From Parapedobacter pyrenivorans (GTDB taxonomy: Bacteria; Bacteroidota; Bacteroidia; Sphingobacteriales; Sphingobacteriaceae), in assembly GCF_014636865.1 (NCBI RefSeq), contig NZ_BMER01000005.1, forward strand, positions 124,001-188,000: a stretch of DNA of 64,000 bases. Direction: 5' to 3'. Below are positions 31,243 through 60,136 of this stretch, in pieces; position 1 is the stretch's first letter; every line of letters starts with the position of its first letter. A program made the position numbers and the translations under genes. The notes under the pieces are model-generated. The model was not told where the DNA came from and did no database searches. It saw only the letters and a program-made list of their open reading frames with translations.

Positions 31243-34200
31243 TCAAAAAGATATATTTGCGCCAAACAAGTAAGTAGCTGAGCTTACGCCCATATTAAAT
31301 GTGTTTTGTCCGCTCCACTCCGGATCAAACCCTGCATAATCCGTAAATATCAGTGGGTTATTTGCCGTCAAGTATAGTCTTAGCCCCGACATCTTCAGAC
31401 GTGATAGGATGTTTGGCGAGAACGAATATCCCAATGTAATATTCTGCACACGCACAAAAGAAGCATCCACATAGGCTTTCAGCTCTTCGCGGGCCCTGCC
31501 GCCGGTGTTGTTGGGCGCAGGCCACTCATTGGAAGGGTTGGTCTCCGTCCAATAATTCACATAGAGTTTGTTATATCGACCGTTCCATTCCCGCGCAAAA
31601 TTAGAGTGATGAAATGGACTGAAAACCATGGATCCCTGTCGAGCGTACAGCATGAAGGAGAAATCAATTCCTTTATAGGCGAAGGTGTTGGTCATGCCAC
31701 CGATCCACTTCGGGAGCGGGCTCCCGATGATTTGTCGGTCCAATTCCGTAATCTGACCGTCGCTATTGAGATCTTTTACTTTTACATGGCCCGGCTCTGC
31801 ACCGTATTTAGTGGCTTCTTCGGCCTCGTCGAGCTGCCATATCCCATCAAAGACTTCGGCATAATGTACTTGTATGGGCTGTCCGATAAACCATTTATTT
31901 CCGATATCATCCTTCTTGTCTCCGTAGAGTTCTACGATCTCGTTGTGATTTTTGGCGAAAGTAAGGGTCGTTTTCCATGAGAAATTGCTGGTGTGGATGT
32001 TTACGGTATTGAGCGCGGCTTCTACCCCCTTGTTGGCCGTCGAGCCGACGTTGGCCGTGATGGCGCCAAAGCCTGTATGCTGGGGGAGTGCCCGGCTCAG
32101 GATCAGGTCTTCCGTTTTTCTGTTGTAGATATCGACCGACCCGGAAATCCGATTCTTGAGAAACCCGAAATCGATACCGAGGTTGATTTCCTTGCTTTTT
32201 TCCCAGCCAAGGGATCTGTTGGCAATGGCACCGGGCGCAAAGCCCAGCGCGGCATTGCCTCCCCAATCGTACATCGTTTGCAAGATGGATGCCTGGGTCG
32301 AATACGGAGCAACGGCATCGTTGCCCACTACACCGTAGCTCAGGCGAAGCTTGAGGTTGGAAAGCGGTTTTACATCGCGAAGGAAATCCTCTTCGCTTAC
32401 CCGCCAAGCGATCGCCGCTGAAGGGAAGAAAGCCCACTTATGCCCCGCTGCCAGCTTTGATGAGCCGTCGGCTCGCCCGGTAAGTGTCAACTGGTATTTG
32501 TCATTGAAAGAGTAATTGAATCTTCCCATATAGGAGAGGAGTGCCCATTCAGTCAGGTAGCTCGATACCCCTTCGATGTTGCCCGCGGATCCGGTGTTGT
32601 ACCAAAAGGAATCGTACGGTAGGTCCAATACATTTTGGGCAGCGCCCTCATTTCGGTTGACAACCACACTATTGGCGAGTATACCGCCGAAGGAATGGGA
32701 TTTGATGGTTTTGTTGTAAGACAACATGTTGTCTAACGTGTAGGAGAAATTAAGTTGGCTACTGTATCCGCTTCTTCCATTTCGGGTTCCTGTGTTTGCT
32801 TTTGAATATTTTCCAGCAAAAGTTCCATTGCGCACACTTTCCAAATACGGAGAAATGGTCGATCGGAACGACAGCCCCTCTATGAGGTTCAATTCTACGA
32901 AAAGATTACCGAATACCCGGAAGTTCCGGAATTCATTTTTGACGTTTAGTGGATCAAAAAGTGCGTTCGGGGTTTGGCTGTCGCTGGTAGTCGGCCAAAA
33001 AAGCAGCTCGCCGGCCTCGTCATAGGCATCGCCAGTTGGCCGCAGTCGATAGGCGCTCCGGAGGGCCTCATTAGACCCTTGGTCTTGTATACTATAAGAA
33101 ACATAAGTGGATGTACCAGCATTGATCCAGTTGTTTATTTTGCCGTCGATATTAGCTTTTAACGTCAATCGGCTGAACTCTTCTGCGGGGACATTCCCCT
33201 CTTCCTTTAGGTAACCTGCAGAAAAGAAATGCTTGGAATTTTCACCCCCTCCCGAAAGGGATACATTGTGGCTTGATTGCATGCCATTCTGCAGCAGCAG
33301 GTCGACCCAGTCGGTATACTTTCCATTGGCAATGTTTTGTTGTTCCTTTTCGTCGAAAAAACGAGTGCCGCCATTTTTTAAGATTTCATTGAAATTTGCG
33401 ACAAATTGGGGGCCGTCCATTAGGTCAGGGAGGTTCGTTGGGGTCTTCATCCCGACATAGCCATCGTATGCGATCCGGTTTTTTCCGGGTGCCCCTTGCC
33501 GGGTGGTTACGATAATTACACCATTCGATCCCCTAGATCCGTAAATCGCCGTAGCTGAAGCATCTTTTAGTACATCGATTTTTTCGATATCAGCCGGATT
33601 CAGTGAGTTCAGCGACCCGCCCATTACACCATCGATGACTACGAGGGGTGCATTCCCCTTTCCAATGGAGTTCAATCCCCGTATTTCGATGCCGTAATCG
33701 TCTCCGGGTTTTCCGTTGACTTTGAGTATATTAACGCCGGCCACTTGTCCCTGTATGGCTCCGGCAGCCTGTATGTTGGCCGTACGCACGATGGCATCGC
33801 GATCGACGGATCCGATAGCGCCGGTTACGTCGCTCTTTTTTACGCTTCCGTAACCGATGACCACGACCTCATCGAGGTCGCTGAGCGAGGGCGACAAGGC
33901 CACATTTATCTCGTTGGAACCGTCAATGGAGCGTTCACTTGATTCGAATCCCATCAATGAGAAGACCAGCGTAGCTGCCTGACGCGGAATTTGTAGGGAA
34001 AACCGACCTGACGTATTCGTGGTGGTTACAAGGGGCGAACCCTTTACGGTAACCGTTACACCCTCGAGGGGCTTTCCTTCGTTGTCCGTAACCCGTCCTG
34101 AGATTTCTGTTTGCTGAACTTCTACATCGACTGGCGTTGCATTTTCCTTTTTGCGGCGCACGAGTACCGTTGTGTTTTCTATTTGGTAAGTAAGGGGTTG

Positions 34201-34503
34201 ACCTGAGAAACAGGCTTCGAGAACCTCGTTCAACGGGGCATCCTTGAAATTCAGGTCAACCACGCTCGTTCCCTTCAAATGGGCACTGTTGTACAGAAAA
34301 TCATAACCCGTTTGCTGTTGGATTTGTTCCAATATAGCGGCGATGGATGCTTTTTTTACCTGTATGGTTACCTTCTGTGCATAGCCCATGGCCCCGGCTT
34401 GTAGGAATGTAACGGTCAACATTAGGGTAACAAGTTTCATGGTCAGCAACAATTTGAACAGATATCGCCTGGGGAGGCGAAATACAATAGAATTTTTATA
34501 CAT
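31243..34503 (-). CDS. SusC/RagA TonB-dependent transporter with STN domain
   Basis: This 1,086-residue outer-membrane transporter has a signal peptide (about 15-43), an STN domain (about 45-116), a carboxypeptidase-D-like domain (about 132-205), a SusC box DLDEVVVIGYGSVKKSDVTG, a plug and a beta-barrel ending in YLFGANISF. The STN domain and upstream fecR and sigma genes make it a signalling transporter. Its start codon overlaps a + strand TAnnTTTG box that may drive an antisense RNA. Its sequence differs well from the locus 1 SusC, so the two probably recognise different ligands. Confidence 0.96.
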   Translation of the reverse strand: MYKNSIVFRLPRRYLFKLLLTMKLVTLMLTVTFLQAGAMGYAQKVTIQVKKASIAAILEQIQQQTGYDFLYNSAHLKGTSVVDLNFKDAPLNEVLEACFSGQPLTYQIENTTVLVRRKKENATPVDVEVQQTEISGRVTDNEGKPLEGVTVTVKGSPLVTTTNTSGRFSLQIPRQAATLVFSLMGFESSERSIDGSNEINVALSPSLSDLDEVVVIGYGSVKKSDVTGAIGSVDRDAIVRTANIQAAGAIQGQVAGVNILKVNGKPGDDYGIEIRGLNSIGKGNAPLVVIDGVMGGSLNSLNPADIEKIDVLKDASATAIYGSRGSNGVIIVTTRQGAPGKNRIAYDGYVGMKTPTNLPDLMDGPQFVANFNEILKNGGTRFFDEKEQQNIANGKYTDWVDLLLQNGMQSSHNVSLSGGGENSKHFFSAGYLKEEGNVPAEEFSRLTLKANIDGKINNWINAGTSTYVSYSIQDQGSNEALRSAYRLRPTGDAYDEAGELLFWPTTSDSQTPNALFDPLNVKNEFRNFRVFGNLFVELNLIEGLSFRSTISPYLESVRNGTFAGKYSKANTGTRNGRSGYSSQLNFSYTLDNMLSYNKTIKSHSFGGILANSVVVNRNEGAAQNVLDLPYDSFWYNTGSAGNIEGVSSYLTEWALLSYMGRFNYSFNDKYQLTLTGRADGSSKLAAGHKWAFFPSAAIAWRVSEEDFLRDVKPLSNLKLRLSYGVVGNDAVAPYSTQASILQTMYDWGGNAALGFAPGAIANRSLGWEKSKEINLGIDFGFLKNRISGSVDIYNRKTEDLILSRALPQHTGFGAITANVGSTANKGVEAALNTVNIHTSNFSWKTTLTFAKNHNEIVELYGDKKDDIGNKWFIGQPIQVHYAEVFDGIWQLDEAEEATKYGAEPGHVKVKDLNSDGQITELDRQIIGSPLPKWIGGMTNTFAYKGIDFSFMLYARQGSMVFSPFHHSNFAREWNGRYNKLYVNYWTETNPSNEWPAPNNTGGRAREELKAYVDASFVRVQNITLGYSFSPNILSRLKMSGLRLYLTANNPLIFTDYAGFDPEWSGQNTFNMGVSSATYLFGANISF

Positions 34504-34511
34504 TTGACAAA

Positions 34512-34601
34512 ATGTTTGGTTAACAATTGGTTACTTTTTTAAGCGAATGGAGTCAATGCCAGCATTGTGCCGGGTGCGCCGCGAACGCCTCCGGCTTTTT
34601 T
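34512..34601 (+). ncRNA. Candidate antisense RNA to the susC leader (locus 2)
   Basis: TACATTTG (34499-34506, + strand) overlaps the susC start codon and matches the TAnnTTTG -7 element. A + strand terminator ends at 34601. A roughly 90-nt transcript would cover most of the fecR-susC intergenic leader in antisense. No clear TTTG lies 19-21 nt upstream. The independent repetition of this geometry at both loci, in unrelated sequence, raises the likelihood. Confidence 0.45.
34569..34601 (+). terminator. Intrinsic terminator on the strand opposite susC (locus 2)
   Basis: GCCGG (34569-34573) pairs with CCGGC (34591-34595), extended by G-U and GCG/CGC (34576-34578 with 34586-34588). Six T residues follow at 34596-34601. 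On the minus strand no T-run follows the hairpin. Confidence 0.7.
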
Positions 34602-34626
34602 GTGGTCATTGCCGATACAAGTATAG

Positions 34627-35832
34627 CTACTTCATGATGACCACCCTCCTTTCTTTGATTTCAAAGCGGATAGGCGCGAGCTTTTCCAAGTAGCTGAAAA
34701 GCTGCGCGATATTTTTTGAGCGCTGGAAGGTTCCGGTAAATCGTTCGTTGAATTCACCCTCATACTCCACAGCGTCGATGTCGTACCAGCGTGATATTTT
34801 GTTGATGATACCTTCGATAGACTCGTCGTCAAACCGGAAATAACCGTTTTTCCAAGCCATGACCGAGCGGACATCTGCATCAGACTGACGGATTGCTCCT
34901 GTTAGCTCATCAACCACGGCTTGTTGATTGGGCTTTAACAAAACTGTCTTTCCATTTTTAGATACATTTACCGACCCCTCCACCAACGTTGTCGTTGTCC
35001 GATTTTCATCCGCATAGGCGGATACGTTGAAATGTGTGCCCAACACCTGTATCGTGCTGCCATTTACTTCTACTGAGAATGGTTTCGAGGCATTATGGGT
35101 GACTTCGAAATATGCTTCCCCCCTTAATAGCGATACATGGCGCTCTTCCTCAGTGAAGGCCACGGGGAAGCGGATGGAAGTGGCTGTGTTTAGCCATACC
35201 TTGGTTCCATCCGGAAGCAAGATCTGATAAGAGCTTCCTTTCGGGGTGCTGAACGTATTGTAGTTGATTGTCCCATCGGCGACGCTAGCCTGCTTGGCCT
35301 CATAAAAGATGCTGCCGTCTTCCGCCTTTCTGATTTCAACACCCGATTCGTGAGCCAGAATACCATTCAGTGAATCGTTCAATAAGATCGTACTACCGTC
35401 TGCCAGGGTGAGTATTGCTTGGTTATGTTCAGGCAACGTGATACTGTTTTCACTTTCGGATGCAATGGATGAAGTATCGGCGCCAGACTGTTGGTTTTCG
35501 TACAATAAAATACCAACAATAAGGGCTGCCATAAAAAGCGCGGCTATTTTCATCCAAGGAAAGGTATACAGCTTATGAGGGGTAGCCTGTTGGGTTGGTG
35601 TTGTTTGAAGAGCATGAATTTCGGAAACAACCCGGCTATATACGTTTTTTTTTCTGTCAGGATTAAACGATGAACCTGCTGCTTTATTGGTCTCCAACGC
35701 TTGGTCAATAGCCATAGCTACGATTGAAGGGCTTCCCTCATCCAAATAGTTCAACAAATCCTCGCAATCCGCTCTCGCGATGGTGTTGTCGAAATATTGC
35801 GTCAGTAACTGTTGTAAGCGAGTATCGTCCAT
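34627..35832 (-). CDS. FecR-family anti-sigma factor
   Basis: This 401-residue inner-membrane protein starts at ATG 35832. It has an N-terminal cytoplasmic region, a single membrane span (KIAALFMAALIVGILLY), a FecR domain (GSSYQILLPDGTKVWLNTAT, RGEAYFEVTHN, VLGTHFNVSAY) and a C-terminal DUF4974 (FDDESIEGIINKISRWYDID). It should relay the SusC STN signal to the sigma factor encoded just upstream. The order sigma-fecR-susC-susD on one strand is the standard Bacteroidota arrangement. Identity with the locus 1 FecR is clear but moderate. Confidence 0.95.
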   Translation of the reverse strand: MDDTRLQQLLTQYFDNTIARADCEDLLNYLDEGSPSIVAMAIDQALETNKAAGSSFNPDRKKNVYSRVVSEIHALQTTPTQQATPHKLYTFPWMKIAALFMAALIVGILLYENQQSGADTSSIASESENSITLPEHNQAILTLADGSTILLNDSLNGILAHESGVEIRKAEDGSIFYEAKQASVADGTINYNTFSTPKGSSYQILLPDGTKVWLNTATSIRFPVAFTEEERHVSLLRGEAYFEVTHNASKPFSVEVNGSTIQVLGTHFNVSAYADENRTTTTLVEGSVNVSKNGKTVLLKPNQQAVVDELTGAIRQSDADVRSVMAWKNGYFRFDDESIEGIINKISRWYDIDAVEYEGEFNERFTGTFQRSKNIAQLFSYLEKLAPIRFEIKERRVVIMK

Positions 35833-35922
35833 GTCTTGTTCATAATTGGCCTCCCGTGTAGGGGGCTTACCTAGATAGAACACCAAAGTTTGGGGGGTAG
35901 GACTAGTTTACTGTTTTTTTTC

Positions 35923-36510
35923 TTAGTGTGCCATCAGGCTAGAGGAGACTATGGCCACCAAATAGGTATAACCGGATTGTCCGAGGGAGCTTTTCAACGT
36001 CTTTAATGCTTGTACCATGTGATTTTTCACTGTGTTGGGCGAAAGCCCAAGCTTTTGTGCAATCTCGTTGTGGGTGAGCCCGTCCTCCCTACTGAGCTTG
36101 AATATCAGCTGTTGTTGCTTGGGAAGACGAGCAATCAACTGTTGGGCATGACGTTCCAGTTCTTCGGCCATGAGCTGTTCGTCCGAGCGTTTACTTTCAG
36201 CTTCTATATTCCGTACGAGTTGTTCAAACAGTGCCGTGGATTTACGGATTTCTCTTAATTTGTTCAGACATAGCCGCTTGGTTATCACGTAGAGGTAAAG
36301 CCACATATTCCCTTGGTCGTCCAACCCCTGGCGATTCAGCCATAATTTCAAAAATACGTCCTGTACAATTTCCTCACTCCAAGCCGTATCCTTTAAAAAT
36401 CGGAAAGCCAACTGATACACCTGCTCACTATGTACATCATAGATAAAGCTAAGAGCTGTCTCATCGCCAGCCATCAGATGCTGGATAGTCGAGGAATCAA
36501 TACGAGACAT
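35923..36510 (-). CDS. RNA polymerase ECF sigma factor (SusC/FecR-linked)
   Basis: This 195-residue sigma factor has region 2 (AWSEEIVQDVFLKLWLNRQ, about 40-60) and region 4 with LPKQQQLIFKLSREDGLTHN and the helix-turn-helix KLGLSPNTVKNHMVQALKTLK. A hydrophobic tail (YTYLVAIVSSSLM) ends the protein. It begins the long minus-strand run that continues to 9543 and is expected to activate it, directly or through fecR-susC. The promoter at 36543-36573 lies just upstream. Confidence 0.95.
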   Translation of the reverse strand: MSRIDSSTIQHLMAGDETALSFIYDVHSEQVYQLAFRFLKDTAWSEEIVQDVFLKLWLNRQGLDDQGNMWLYLYVITKRLCLNKLREIRKSTALFEQLVRNIEAESKRSDEQLMAEELERHAQQLIARLPKQQQLIFKLSREDGLTHNEIAQKLGLSPNTVKNHMVQALKTLKSSLGQSGYTYLVAIVSSSLMAH

Positions 36511-36542
36511 CGGTGTAAGTTTATAATTGTGTTAATCAGTTA

Positions 36543-49981: not shown

Positions 49982-50013
49982 TTTGAAACGTACTATCGAA
50001 AGCCTTATCTTTG
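49982..50013 (+). promoter_or_regulatory. Promoter of small-RNA cassette copy 1
   Basis: TTTG (49982-49985), a 20-nt spacer and TATCTTTG (50006-50013) match the Bacteroidota consensus exactly. The spacer differs completely from copies 2 and 3, while the boxes and the downstream 77 nt are kept. Confidence 0.8.
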
Positions 50014-50086
50014 TTGCATCATAATTTAGGTTTATAATTGGTTAGTAAAGGTTTCCATTCTCCCCGTTTGGAAACCTTTCGTTTTT
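50014..50086 (+). ncRNA. Small-RNA cassette, copy 1
   Basis: The sequence from 50010 to 50086 is identical to copy 2 (50661-50737) and to copy 3 (60033-60109, minus strand). It starts just after a consensus promoter and ends in a perfect 11-bp hairpin (AAAGGTTTCCA at 50047-50057 with TGGAAACCTTT at 50069-50079, loop TTCTCCCCGTT), then CGTTTTT. The transcript would be about 65-70 nt. No open frame of useful length is present. It lies 68 nt before the GreA-like gene and could alternatively be an attenuated leader for it. It is not recognised as a known RNA family. Confidence 0.7.
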
Positions 50087-50153
50087 AGAAGGCACGGAAG
50101 TCGTGGCCGTGCTGAAAGGTGTATATTTGAAGTGTGATTTTCATCCCGACCAT

Positions 50154-50609
50154 ATGCTCAATGAAATCAAAGAATCCATATTAGTTGCTTGCCGGCAATA
50201 CGTAGACCAGCGGATAGTCAATGCACGGCAAGCAATCGCCTCCGCAAATGAGGCGGCGATAGGCGACGGCAAAAGTAGTGCTGGTGACAAGTTCGAAACT
50301 ACTCGCGAAATGATGCAGCAAGAGATCGCTAGAAACCAGCAACTGTGGATGGATGCATTACGGATGGAGCAGGTACTGGCTGCGTTAGATGCGCGGTCAC
50401 ATAAGGGAACCGCTAAGCTGGGTAGCCTTGTTGCGACCAATCACGGCACCTTTTTCCTAGCAATCAGCATAGGGCAGTTGATTGTAGGCGATGCGAATTA
50501 TTGGGTAGTATCTACTGCCTCCCCCATTGGGCAACAGCTTGTAGGCCGGGAAGCCGGACAGGAGTTTACATTTAATGGTGTGACCTATGCAATAGGCCAT
50601 GTGACCTAA
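50154..50609 (+). CDS. Small GreA/GreB C-terminal-domain-like protein
   Basis: This 151-residue protein has an N-terminal helical part rich in Gln, Glu and Arg (about 1-80, with DKFETTREMMQQEIARNQQL) and a C-terminal half resembling the GreA/GreB C-terminal FKBP-like domain (GSLVATNHGTFFLAISIGQL, VVSTASPIGQQLVGREAGQEFTFNG). Bacteroidota homologues are often annotated '3-oxoacyl-ACP synthase', which the sequence does not support. A role as an RNA polymerase secondary-channel factor is an inference. The ATG at 50154 is chosen over a GTG at 50103. It lies between two direct copies of the small-RNA cassette. Confidence 0.8.
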   Translation: MLNEIKESILVACRQYVDQRIVNARQAIASANEAAIGDGKSSAGDKFETTREMMQQEIARNQQLWMDALRMEQVLAALDARSHKGTAKLGSLVATNHGTFFLAISIGQLIVGDANYWVVSTASPIGQQLVGREAGQEFTFNGVTYAIGHVT

Positions 50610-50633
50610 CCGCCATAAAAAAATGAAATAAAA

Positions 50634-50664
50634 TTTGCATAGTGTAAAAAATACACTATCTTTG
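50634..50664 (+). promoter_or_regulatory. Promoter of small-RNA cassette copy 2, with palindromic operator-like site
   Basis: TTTG (50634-50637), a 19-nt spacer and TATCTTTG (50657-50664) match the consensus exactly. The spacer contains TAGTGTA-AAAAA-TACACTA, a perfect 7-bp inverted repeat overlapping the start of the -7 box. It is shared with copy 3 and absent from copy 1. Confidence 0.75.
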
Positions 50665-50738
50665 TTGCATCATAATTTAGGTTTATAATTGGTTAGTAAA
50701 GGTTTCCATTCTCCCCGTTTGGAAACCTTTCGTTTTTT
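50665..50738 (+). ncRNA. Small-RNA cassette, copy 2
   Basis: This copy is identical to copy 1 over 77 nt and fills the gap between the GreA-like gene and the convergent VCBS gene. The terminator hairpin is AAAGGTTTCCA (50698-50708) with TGGAAACCTTT (50720-50730), followed by CG and six T residues. It may also end the GreA-like transcript. Confidence 0.7.
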
Positions 50739-60031: not shown

Positions 60032-60105
60032 AAAAAACGAAAGGTTTCCAAACGGGGAGAATGGAAACCTTTACTAACCAATTATAAACCTAAATTATGA
60101 TGCAA
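60032..60105 (-). ncRNA. Small-RNA cassette, copy 3
   Basis: On the minus strand, 60109 down to 60033 is identical to copies 1 and 2 over 77 nt. The hairpin is AAAGGTTTCCA (60040-60050, + strand) with TGGAAACCTTT (60062-60072), then CG and six T residues. It sits between the isomerase gene and the SelW-like gene and points at the isomerase stop codon. Confidence 0.7.
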
Positions 60106-60136
60106 CAAAGGTAGTGTATTTTTTACACTATGCAAA
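60106..60136 (-). promoter_or_regulatory. Promoter of small-RNA cassette copy 3, with palindromic site
   Basis: On the minus strand TTTG (60133-60136) and TACCTTTG (60106-60113) are 19 nt apart. The single difference from copy 2 falls at a free position of TAnnTTTG. The TAGTGTA/TACACTA palindrome is kept. Confidence 0.75.

Follow-up and report, generated by a model that had tools for sequence, protein, structure and literature searches.

A 64,000-nt stretch of Parapedobacter pyrenivorans DNA (the window) contains one segment of 77 nucleotides three times over. What does so exactly repeated a cassette encode, and on what would its product act? The first-pass annotation had proposed a small RNA gene with its own promoter and terminator, and had asked for a search for homologues beyond the window. 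We considered the anatomy of the cassette, its copies in other genomes and in phages, and the mRNAs with which its RNA could pair.

Three predicted small RNA cassettes in the window

The identity is exact over 77 nt in all three copies, at 50010-50086 and 50661-50737 on the forward strand and in the reverse complement of 60033-60109; upstream, copies 1 and 2 agree over another 4 nt, and either of them agrees with copy 3 over 1 nt. The boxes of a TTTG-N19/20-TAnnTTTG promoter can be read before each copy (Table 1), and this putative promoter resembles the sigma-ABfr type described for Bacteroides in the accessible text of PMC7366714. As had been noticed earlier, the copy 1 spacer is unrelated to the other two while the boxes stay exact; copies 2 and 3 also have their promoter region in common, and the single change between them there sits in the -7 box. 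In the predicted fold the cassette ends, as annotated, in a perfect 11-bp hairpin plus CGTTTTT, and the stretch before the stem of copy 1 is mostly unpaired (mean 0.79, nt 1-27). The sequence thus supports the proposed small RNA gene of about 65-70 nt, with a predicted sigma-ABfr-type promoter on every window copy and an intrinsic terminator.

Table 1. Predicted sRNA features and target sites in the window (window coordinates)
Feature	Position	Strand	Elements	Basis or remark
Copy 1 promoter	49982..50013	+	-33 TTTG 49982-49985; 20-nt spacer; -7 TATCTTTG 50006-50013	sequence
Copy 1 predicted sRNA	50017..50086	+	~70 nt	5' end placed from the -7 box
Copy 1 core	50029..50045	+	GGTTTATAATTGGTTAG, proposed seed	genome searches
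Copy 1 terminator	50047..50086	+	11-bp stem 50047-50057/50069-50079; loop TTCTCCCCGTT; then CGTTTTT	fold
Copy 2 promoter	50634..50664	+	TTTG 50634-50637; 19-nt spacer; TATCTTTG 50657-50664	sequence
Copy 2 predicted sRNA	50668..50737	+		predicted start
Copy 2 core	50680..50696	+		genome searches
Copy 2 terminator	50698..50737	+		fold
Copy 3 promoter	60106..60136	-	TTTG 60136-60133; 19-nt spacer; TACCTTTG 60113-60106	sequence
Copy 3 predicted sRNA	60033..60102	-		predicted start
Copy 3 core	60074..60090	-		genome searches
Copy 3 terminator	60033..60072	-		fold
Target site, SusC leader	34518..34533	-	UAACCAAUUGUUAACC	predicted, 15-30 nt before ATG
Predicted target gene	31243..34503	-	SusC/RagA TonB-linked outer membrane protein with STN domain	
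Predicted target gene	34627..35832	-	FecR-type anti-sigma factor	leader duplex -16.9 kcal/mol
Target site, ECF sigma leader	36519..36529	-	CAAUUAUAAAC	predicted, 9-19 nt before ATG
Predicted target gene	35923..36510	-	ECF sigma factor (TIGR02985)	

The genes around the window copies look ordinary. Upstream of copy 1 lie rbfA and a Leu/Phe-tRNA-protein transferase gene, the ORF between copies 1 and 2 has a GreA/GreB match below cut-off, an FG-GAP protein is encoded downstream of copy 2, and copy 3 is adjoined by genes for a TIM-barrel protein and an Rdx protein. ARAGORN found no tRNA in the window. The first-pass annotation did not recognise the RNA as a named family, and neither does Rfam at its curated cut-offs: the whole window gave 0 matches at the gathering cut-offs, and copy 1 searched at E up to 10 gave only CRISPR-DR21, at 14.6 bits against a cut-off of 48.

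A nearly fixed core and a covarying terminator

A search of the 5.93-Mb genome with a 78-mer returned 18 sites, 15 of them additional to the window copies, and all have the fixed 5' part and a hairpin. Five copies (the three in the window, L004 and L005) hardly differ along their whole length, whereas the remaining 13 have the core region in common with them but other stems, and mostly show the loop ATTCTCCCCGTTT. The strict terminator rule is passed by 17 of the 18, L015 being the one that fails. An 18-mer containing the core occurs 17 times exactly, twice with one mismatch, once with two and five times with three, compared with four sites in total for the same 18-mer read backward over that mismatch range; one of the one-mismatch sites (L096) shows no terminator by eye. 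As a separate observation, about 350 nt separate the copy at C1:1064189-1064266 (L004) from a susC match that follows it with the same orientation (C1:1064616, L280).

Across genomes we collected 216 unique sites, defined as the core with up to two mismatches, of which 204 have the exact 17-mer. Their shared layout is a near-invariant, mostly unpaired 5' core, GGUUUAUAAUUGGUUAG, followed by a terminator hairpin that covaries and carries a C-rich loop. Invariance of the core in our alignment (A1) results from how the sites were chosen, because they were collected by the core, and the mismatch-tolerant searches are a fairer measure of its conservation. A terminator-like hairpin with a T-run follows the exact core at 190 of 204 sites, whereas the same rule is satisfied at 115 of 3000 random positions and, where GGTTAG occurs outside the core, at 10 of the 134 sites that follow it. 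CCC is present in 180 of these 190 terminator loops; that such a C-rich loop might bind purine-rich ribosome binding sites was offered as speculation in the first-pass annotation. Stem covariation was measured in the 44 hairpins of the CCCAU-loop class, which is a sister class and not the loop class of the window copies: there 94.0% of stem cells are paired, and covariation is 0.773, against 0.247 when shuffled and at most 0.292 when slid. These comparisons show many copies of a predicted sRNA with a nearly fixed 17-nt 5' core, a covarying terminator stem and a mostly C-rich loop. The first-pass annotation had seen selection for a promoter and an RNA; the sRNA gene stands, but the strongest constraint falls on the mostly unpaired 5' core.

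The core is present in 47 of 61 Sphingobacteriaceae genomes, including that of the window, and in 19 of 25 genera. A search of 41 genomes yielded 20 with the core, and 0 of 16 among genomes from other families. In a class-wide search 7 of 295 genomes matched, all seven Sphingobacteriaceae and none outside the family; the query was a covariance model (R1) for which RNAalifold had given 4 base pairs other than those of the terminator, so that this search ran mainly on sequence. At least 117 core stretches came from a scan of named genomes, and the matches listed include Sphingobacterium, Mucilaginibacter, Parapedobacter, Olivibacter, Pedobacter, Arcticibacter, Daejeonella, Paradesertivirga, Rhinopithecimicrobium and other Bacteroidota. 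Among the matches listed, 106 of 117 loci have the core and a terminator by the strict rule, and four records from elsewhere (L117, L127, L142, L157) have a bare core and no terminator. A literature search that covered few subscription journals found no earlier description of this sRNA family.

Three family genomes had yielded no copy, and we searched them for diverged ones. With a relaxed pattern the sites numbered 33, 13 and 11, and with its backward-read control 26, 1 and 14, so that one genome, G014, has an excess. Thirty loci taken from the 57 sites gave 32 site views, of which 2 (L435, L458) satisfy the terminator rule; this is about the rate at random positions, and both are unlike family members by eye. 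These candidates were rejected. Two side observations concern other RNAs: a possible sister sRNA with the core GGTTAATAATTGGTTTG and its own hairpin occurs in Sphingobacterium (L133, L193, L197), and a Flavo-1 RNA (59.2 bits, L216:3361-3446) in Pedobacter psychrophilus is unrelated to the sRNA copy at the same locus.

Promoters, tRNA-like carriers and phage copies

The core is fixed, and what precedes it varies. Upstream of the 216 sites we distinguish TAnnTTTG (45, with a -33 TTG in 42), a GTCTTTTCATAATTTA box (56), a T-arm-like sequence (56), a CCTCA box (16) and other sequences (43); for the 18 own-genome copies the counts are 10 for GTCTTTT, 5 for TAnnTTTG, 1 for CCTCA and 2 for others. 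The first-pass annotation had accepted that copies elsewhere without the promoter boxes would count against it, and in part such copies exist. The window copies do keep the boxes, but only those 45 of 216 sites, and 5 of 18 in the own genome, have TAnnTTTG directly upstream.

Two upstream arrangements may be noted. A second conserved box, approximately GTTATATAGTCAGTTAGTAA (up to four mismatches), precedes 7 of the 18 own copies, which lack the usual promoter (L006, L007, L008, L009, L010, L012 and L015); it may be a different kind of promoter or a site of processing. Loci of the CCTCA class (L018, L105, L164 and others) have a longer upstream region, in which the core is immediately preceded by a conserved CCCTCA...ATA box and, at a distance of some 70-90 nt, by a TATATTTG-like box.

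Since 56 of the 216 sites stand behind a T-arm-like sequence, a second way of producing the putative sRNA is suggested. One tRNA-like pattern accommodates 38 of these 56 members, with an acceptor of 7-8 pairs, a 5-pair T-stem, a Leu-like D-arm, GUC in a 7-nt loop, a long variable arm and paired changes (for example, G-C in 19 and A-U in 17 at one acceptor position). The core starts 15-19 nt past the tRNA-like acceptor, at 16 nt in 27 of the 38. ARAGORN, run on 37 loci that included tRNA-like and other ones, reported no tRNA in 36, its sole call being a tRNA-Cys upstream of the core at L043, and Rfam gave no tRNA match in the five loci tried. Such tRNA-like RNAs, sometimes in tandem, lie directly 5' of sRNA copies at L175 (about 970-1090), L251, L216 and other loci of Pedobacter, Mucilaginibacter, Daejeonella and Arcticibacter. 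If they are processed as tRNAs are, 3' processing after the acceptor would free a trailer sRNA close in size to the one made from a promoter.

Phages carry the core as well. The exact 18-mer occurs in 37 IMG/VR viral contigs (L460-L496), 27 of which have a terminator by the strict rule, and all four contigs tested (L469, L472, L482, L485) have terminase, portal, head or integrase genes; the copy in L472 adjoins an integrase gene. In three contigs the core lies 16-18 nt behind a phage tRNA call, tRNA-Asp in L469 and calls of undefined anticodon in L483 and L484. By eye, the phage terminators mostly differ from those of the hosts. BLAST with window copy 1 gave one weak match (E 0.2) in the phage collection and none in the plasmid collection.

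Complementarity to susC, ECF sigma and FecR leaders

We tested susC first because the FopS sRNAs of Bacteroides repress susC mRNAs at the start region, as the accessible text of PMC11697453 describes. The own genome holds at least 56 susC genes. Leaders were taken from -40 to +15, with start codons picked by rule and not from annotation, and the 56 best-scoring of 174 first-look candidates were scored. Their mean duplex energy with the 5' part of the sRNA is -11.47 kcal/mol, whereas 300 dinucleotide-shuffled sRNAs on the same leaders average -8.41 (sd 0.60) and none of the 300 is as low. Control regions stay near the shuffled level, at -8.70 kcal/mol for 230 other genes, -8.57 for positions far upstream and -8.06 for the coding part, and a comparison of 54 susC with 94 AT-rich control leaders gives p = 7e-9. 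The reversed sRNA likewise reaches lower energies with susC leaders (-9.6) than with control leaders (-8.3). Complementary hexamers peak in susC leaders at -30 to -10 from the start codon.

Leaders of the two regulators also pair better with the sRNA than with shuffled ones. For 26 ECF sigma leaders the mean is -10.51 against -8.50 kcal/mol for shuffled sRNAs (0/300 as low; p = 0.002 vs control genes), in a sample drawn from the best 30 of 69 sigma matches, with 2 of 30 dropped for want of an ATG (L504, L525) and the two window genes that had suggested the class left out. For 25 FecR leaders it is -10.44 against -8.70 (0/300; p = 0.005), from the best 30 of 35 FecR_C matches, with 2 of 29 skipped (L532, L550) and both L555, a SusC-length frame, and the window genes left out. 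In the best duplexes with susC and sigma leaders, the GUUU and UUGGU of the core are used in 0.76-0.91. Statistically, then, the core shows more complementarity to the start regions of all three gene classes, susC, ECF sigma and FecR, than shuffled sRNAs or other genes give, and for susC this also exceeds other parts of the same genes.

When ORF starts in the window and in fourteen 20-kb stretches were compared, the top three sites were those of an ECF sigma, a SusC and a FecR gene clustered at 31243-36510 of the window. In the SusC leader, 15 of 16 positions of UAACCAAUUGUUAACC can pair with the core (14 Watson-Crick, 1 G-U), and at -17.7 kcal/mol this leader is the best of the 56; CAAUUAUAAAC in the sigma leader offers 11 contiguous Watson-Crick pairs, with a leader duplex of -18.6 kcal/mol. 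Some leaders are poor targets, such as that of another window susC gene (L235, -6.8 kcal/mol). A near-perfect single target, for example in rRNA, was considered and rejected: with up to three mismatches, and core-like sites set aside, the antisense of the core has only 6 sites in the genome, all different, scattered and at 2-3 mismatches.

We then compared genomes with and without the sRNA. The susC leaders of four other carriers, each from another genus (50 leaders, 12-13 per genome), were matched as well by 0 of 100 shuffles in every case. For family genomes without a copy found, shuffles as low number 0/100 in G011, 3/100 in G014 and 28/100 in G017, the last represented by one leader because only 25 of 30 further loci entered the test (one of 40 other-genome leaders, L391, had been dropped for lack of a start); two other families gave 7/100 and 21/100. 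The own genome shows a mean excess of -3.08 kcal/mol and the other carriers one of -3.19, compared with -1.48 in non-carriers (32 leaders) and -1.10 in other families, and carriers exceed non-carriers at p = 0.001. A Watson-Crick run of at least 8 pairs is found in 0.30 of leaders in other carriers, 0.23 in the own genome, 0.19 in non-carriers and 0.07 in control genes. About half the excess is thus seen in non-carriers, and the match is therefore partly a general trait of susC leaders. It would seem, then, that the sRNA seed makes use of a feature that susC leaders commonly have already.

Discussion

We think it probable, though well short of certain, that the cassette belongs to a multicopy family of trans-acting sRNAs of the Sphingobacteriaceae whose core would pair with susC, ECF sigma and FecR leaders and hold these cassettes down. 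In such a model the sRNA would be made as a 65-70-nt transcript, and its unpaired core would pair with leaders some 10-30 nt upstream of the start codon. Pairing there would block ribosome entry, so that nutrient-uptake cassettes of sigma factor, anti-sigma factor and SusC are kept low. The many copies could supply both dose and several inputs, from their own promoters, from tRNA-like transcripts and from phages.

Other explanations have to be weighed against the same data. The core might be the binding site of a protein such as a chaperone, termination factor or processing factor, the RNA serving as a protein sponge or a stable 3' end and its susC complementarity being incidental or secondary. 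The rigidity of the core is indeed high for a seed with many targets (17 exact copies in the genome), and it is retained behind tRNA-like RNAs and in phage contigs; against it stand pairing coverage that peaks on the core, complementarity that peaks just ahead of susC start codons, and three linked gene classes that each beat all 300 shuffles. We regard this explanation as unlikely. We give somewhat less credence still to general composition, that is, to a chance match of the sRNA with Bacteroidota susC leaders that are AT-rich and contain AACC/TAAAC words. The share of the excess seen in genomes without a copy and the partial success of the reversed sRNA speak for it, but dinucleotide-shuffled sRNAs and AT-matched control leaders both fail, carriers exceed non-carriers, and ECF sigma leaders match despite their ordinary composition (GC 0.38 vs 0.36 in controls).

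The element might also act as DNA: as a promoter-terminator insulator in dispersed copies, as an attachment site for phages, or as a mobile element of the non-autonomous kind. This appears very improbable to us. The dispersal of the copies, the 37 phage contigs, the copy beside an integrase gene and the promoter region that window copies 2 and 3 share besides the 77 nt could be read in this way, but stems, loops and upstream parts vary while the core and hairpin pairing persist, and most phage terminators, judged by eye, are unlike those of the hosts. The family of repressing sRNAs that we favor could also be part of something larger, a host-phage RNA regulon in which one seed, issued from free-standing genes, from tRNA or tRNA-like 3' trailers and from phages, would repress uptake cassettes throughout the bacterial family, with phages resetting receptors and the tRNA-like RNA acting as a processing platform. 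This extension is speculative and we consider it doubtful, if conceivable.

Comparison with known systems

Bacteroidota have large sets of SusC cassettes, the silencing of which is understood chiefly at the level of transcription (general knowledge, and the framing in the accessible text of PMC11697453). The closest known system is FopS, which that text presents as an experimentally supported family of paralogous sRNAs in Bacteroides thetaiotaomicron, and the Sphingobacteriaceae sRNA may work like it; the likeness lies in architecture and predicted targets. As far as the accessible text of PMC11697453 goes, both are multicopy (14 FopS, 18 copies here) and of similar size (about 65 nt there, a predicted 70 nt here), with the same layout of a single-stranded 5' part leading directly into an intrinsic terminator. 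Both are complementary to susC-type start regions, and both have phage copies, that of FopS being reported in a Caudovirales phage. Only some copies have a counterpart to the canonical sigma-ABfr promoters of FopS: the window copies do, and a TAnnTTTG box stands before 5 of the 18 own copies and 45 of the 216 sites, the rest lacking it. Set against what that text describes, the Sphingobacteriaceae sRNA resides in another bacterial family, additionally fits ECF sigma and FecR leaders, and has copies behind tRNA-like RNAs. In Bacteroides the RRM protein RbpB binds and antagonises FopS, whereas the own genome yielded no small RbpB-like RRM protein at E up to 0.001, the only RRM_1 match being the C-terminus of a SLFN_AlbA_2/HATPase_c_4 protein (L299:91-1752). 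Our Rfam scans gave no FopS match, although it is uncertain whether Rfam holds a FopS model.

GibS of B. thetaiotaomicron likewise has a conserved unstructured 5' seed that acts on translation initiation regions, but it is 145 nt long, with two seeds, a non-canonical promoter and other targets, according to the accessible text of PMC7366714 and PMC11697453. GibS and FopS have an R1/R1' seed sequence in common. Flavo-1 RNA (RF01705) is also a small Bacteroidota RNA; it differs in sequence and structure, and the two do not overlap. sRNAs released from tRNA 3' trailers exist, as in the case of E. coli leuZ 3' ETS. Some copies here resemble these in lying 15-19 nt 3' of a tRNA-like RNA, or close behind phage tRNA calls, and in ending with a terminator; in contrast, the same core is also found here in free-standing genes, and the tRNA-like loci scanned drew no tRNA call from ARAGORN.

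If our reading is correct, a single RNA seed would act on three layers, sigma factor, anti-sigma factor and transporter, outside the gut Bacteroides, and FopS-like control would be a wider principle, with a target rule that is easy to test. Likewise, the tRNA-like carrier and the copies in phages would be a new way for an sRNA to be produced and spread. Relative to the systems described above, what is new here are the predicted sigma and anti-sigma targets, the copies placed 15-19 nt behind tRNA-like RNAs, and the copies on phage contigs.
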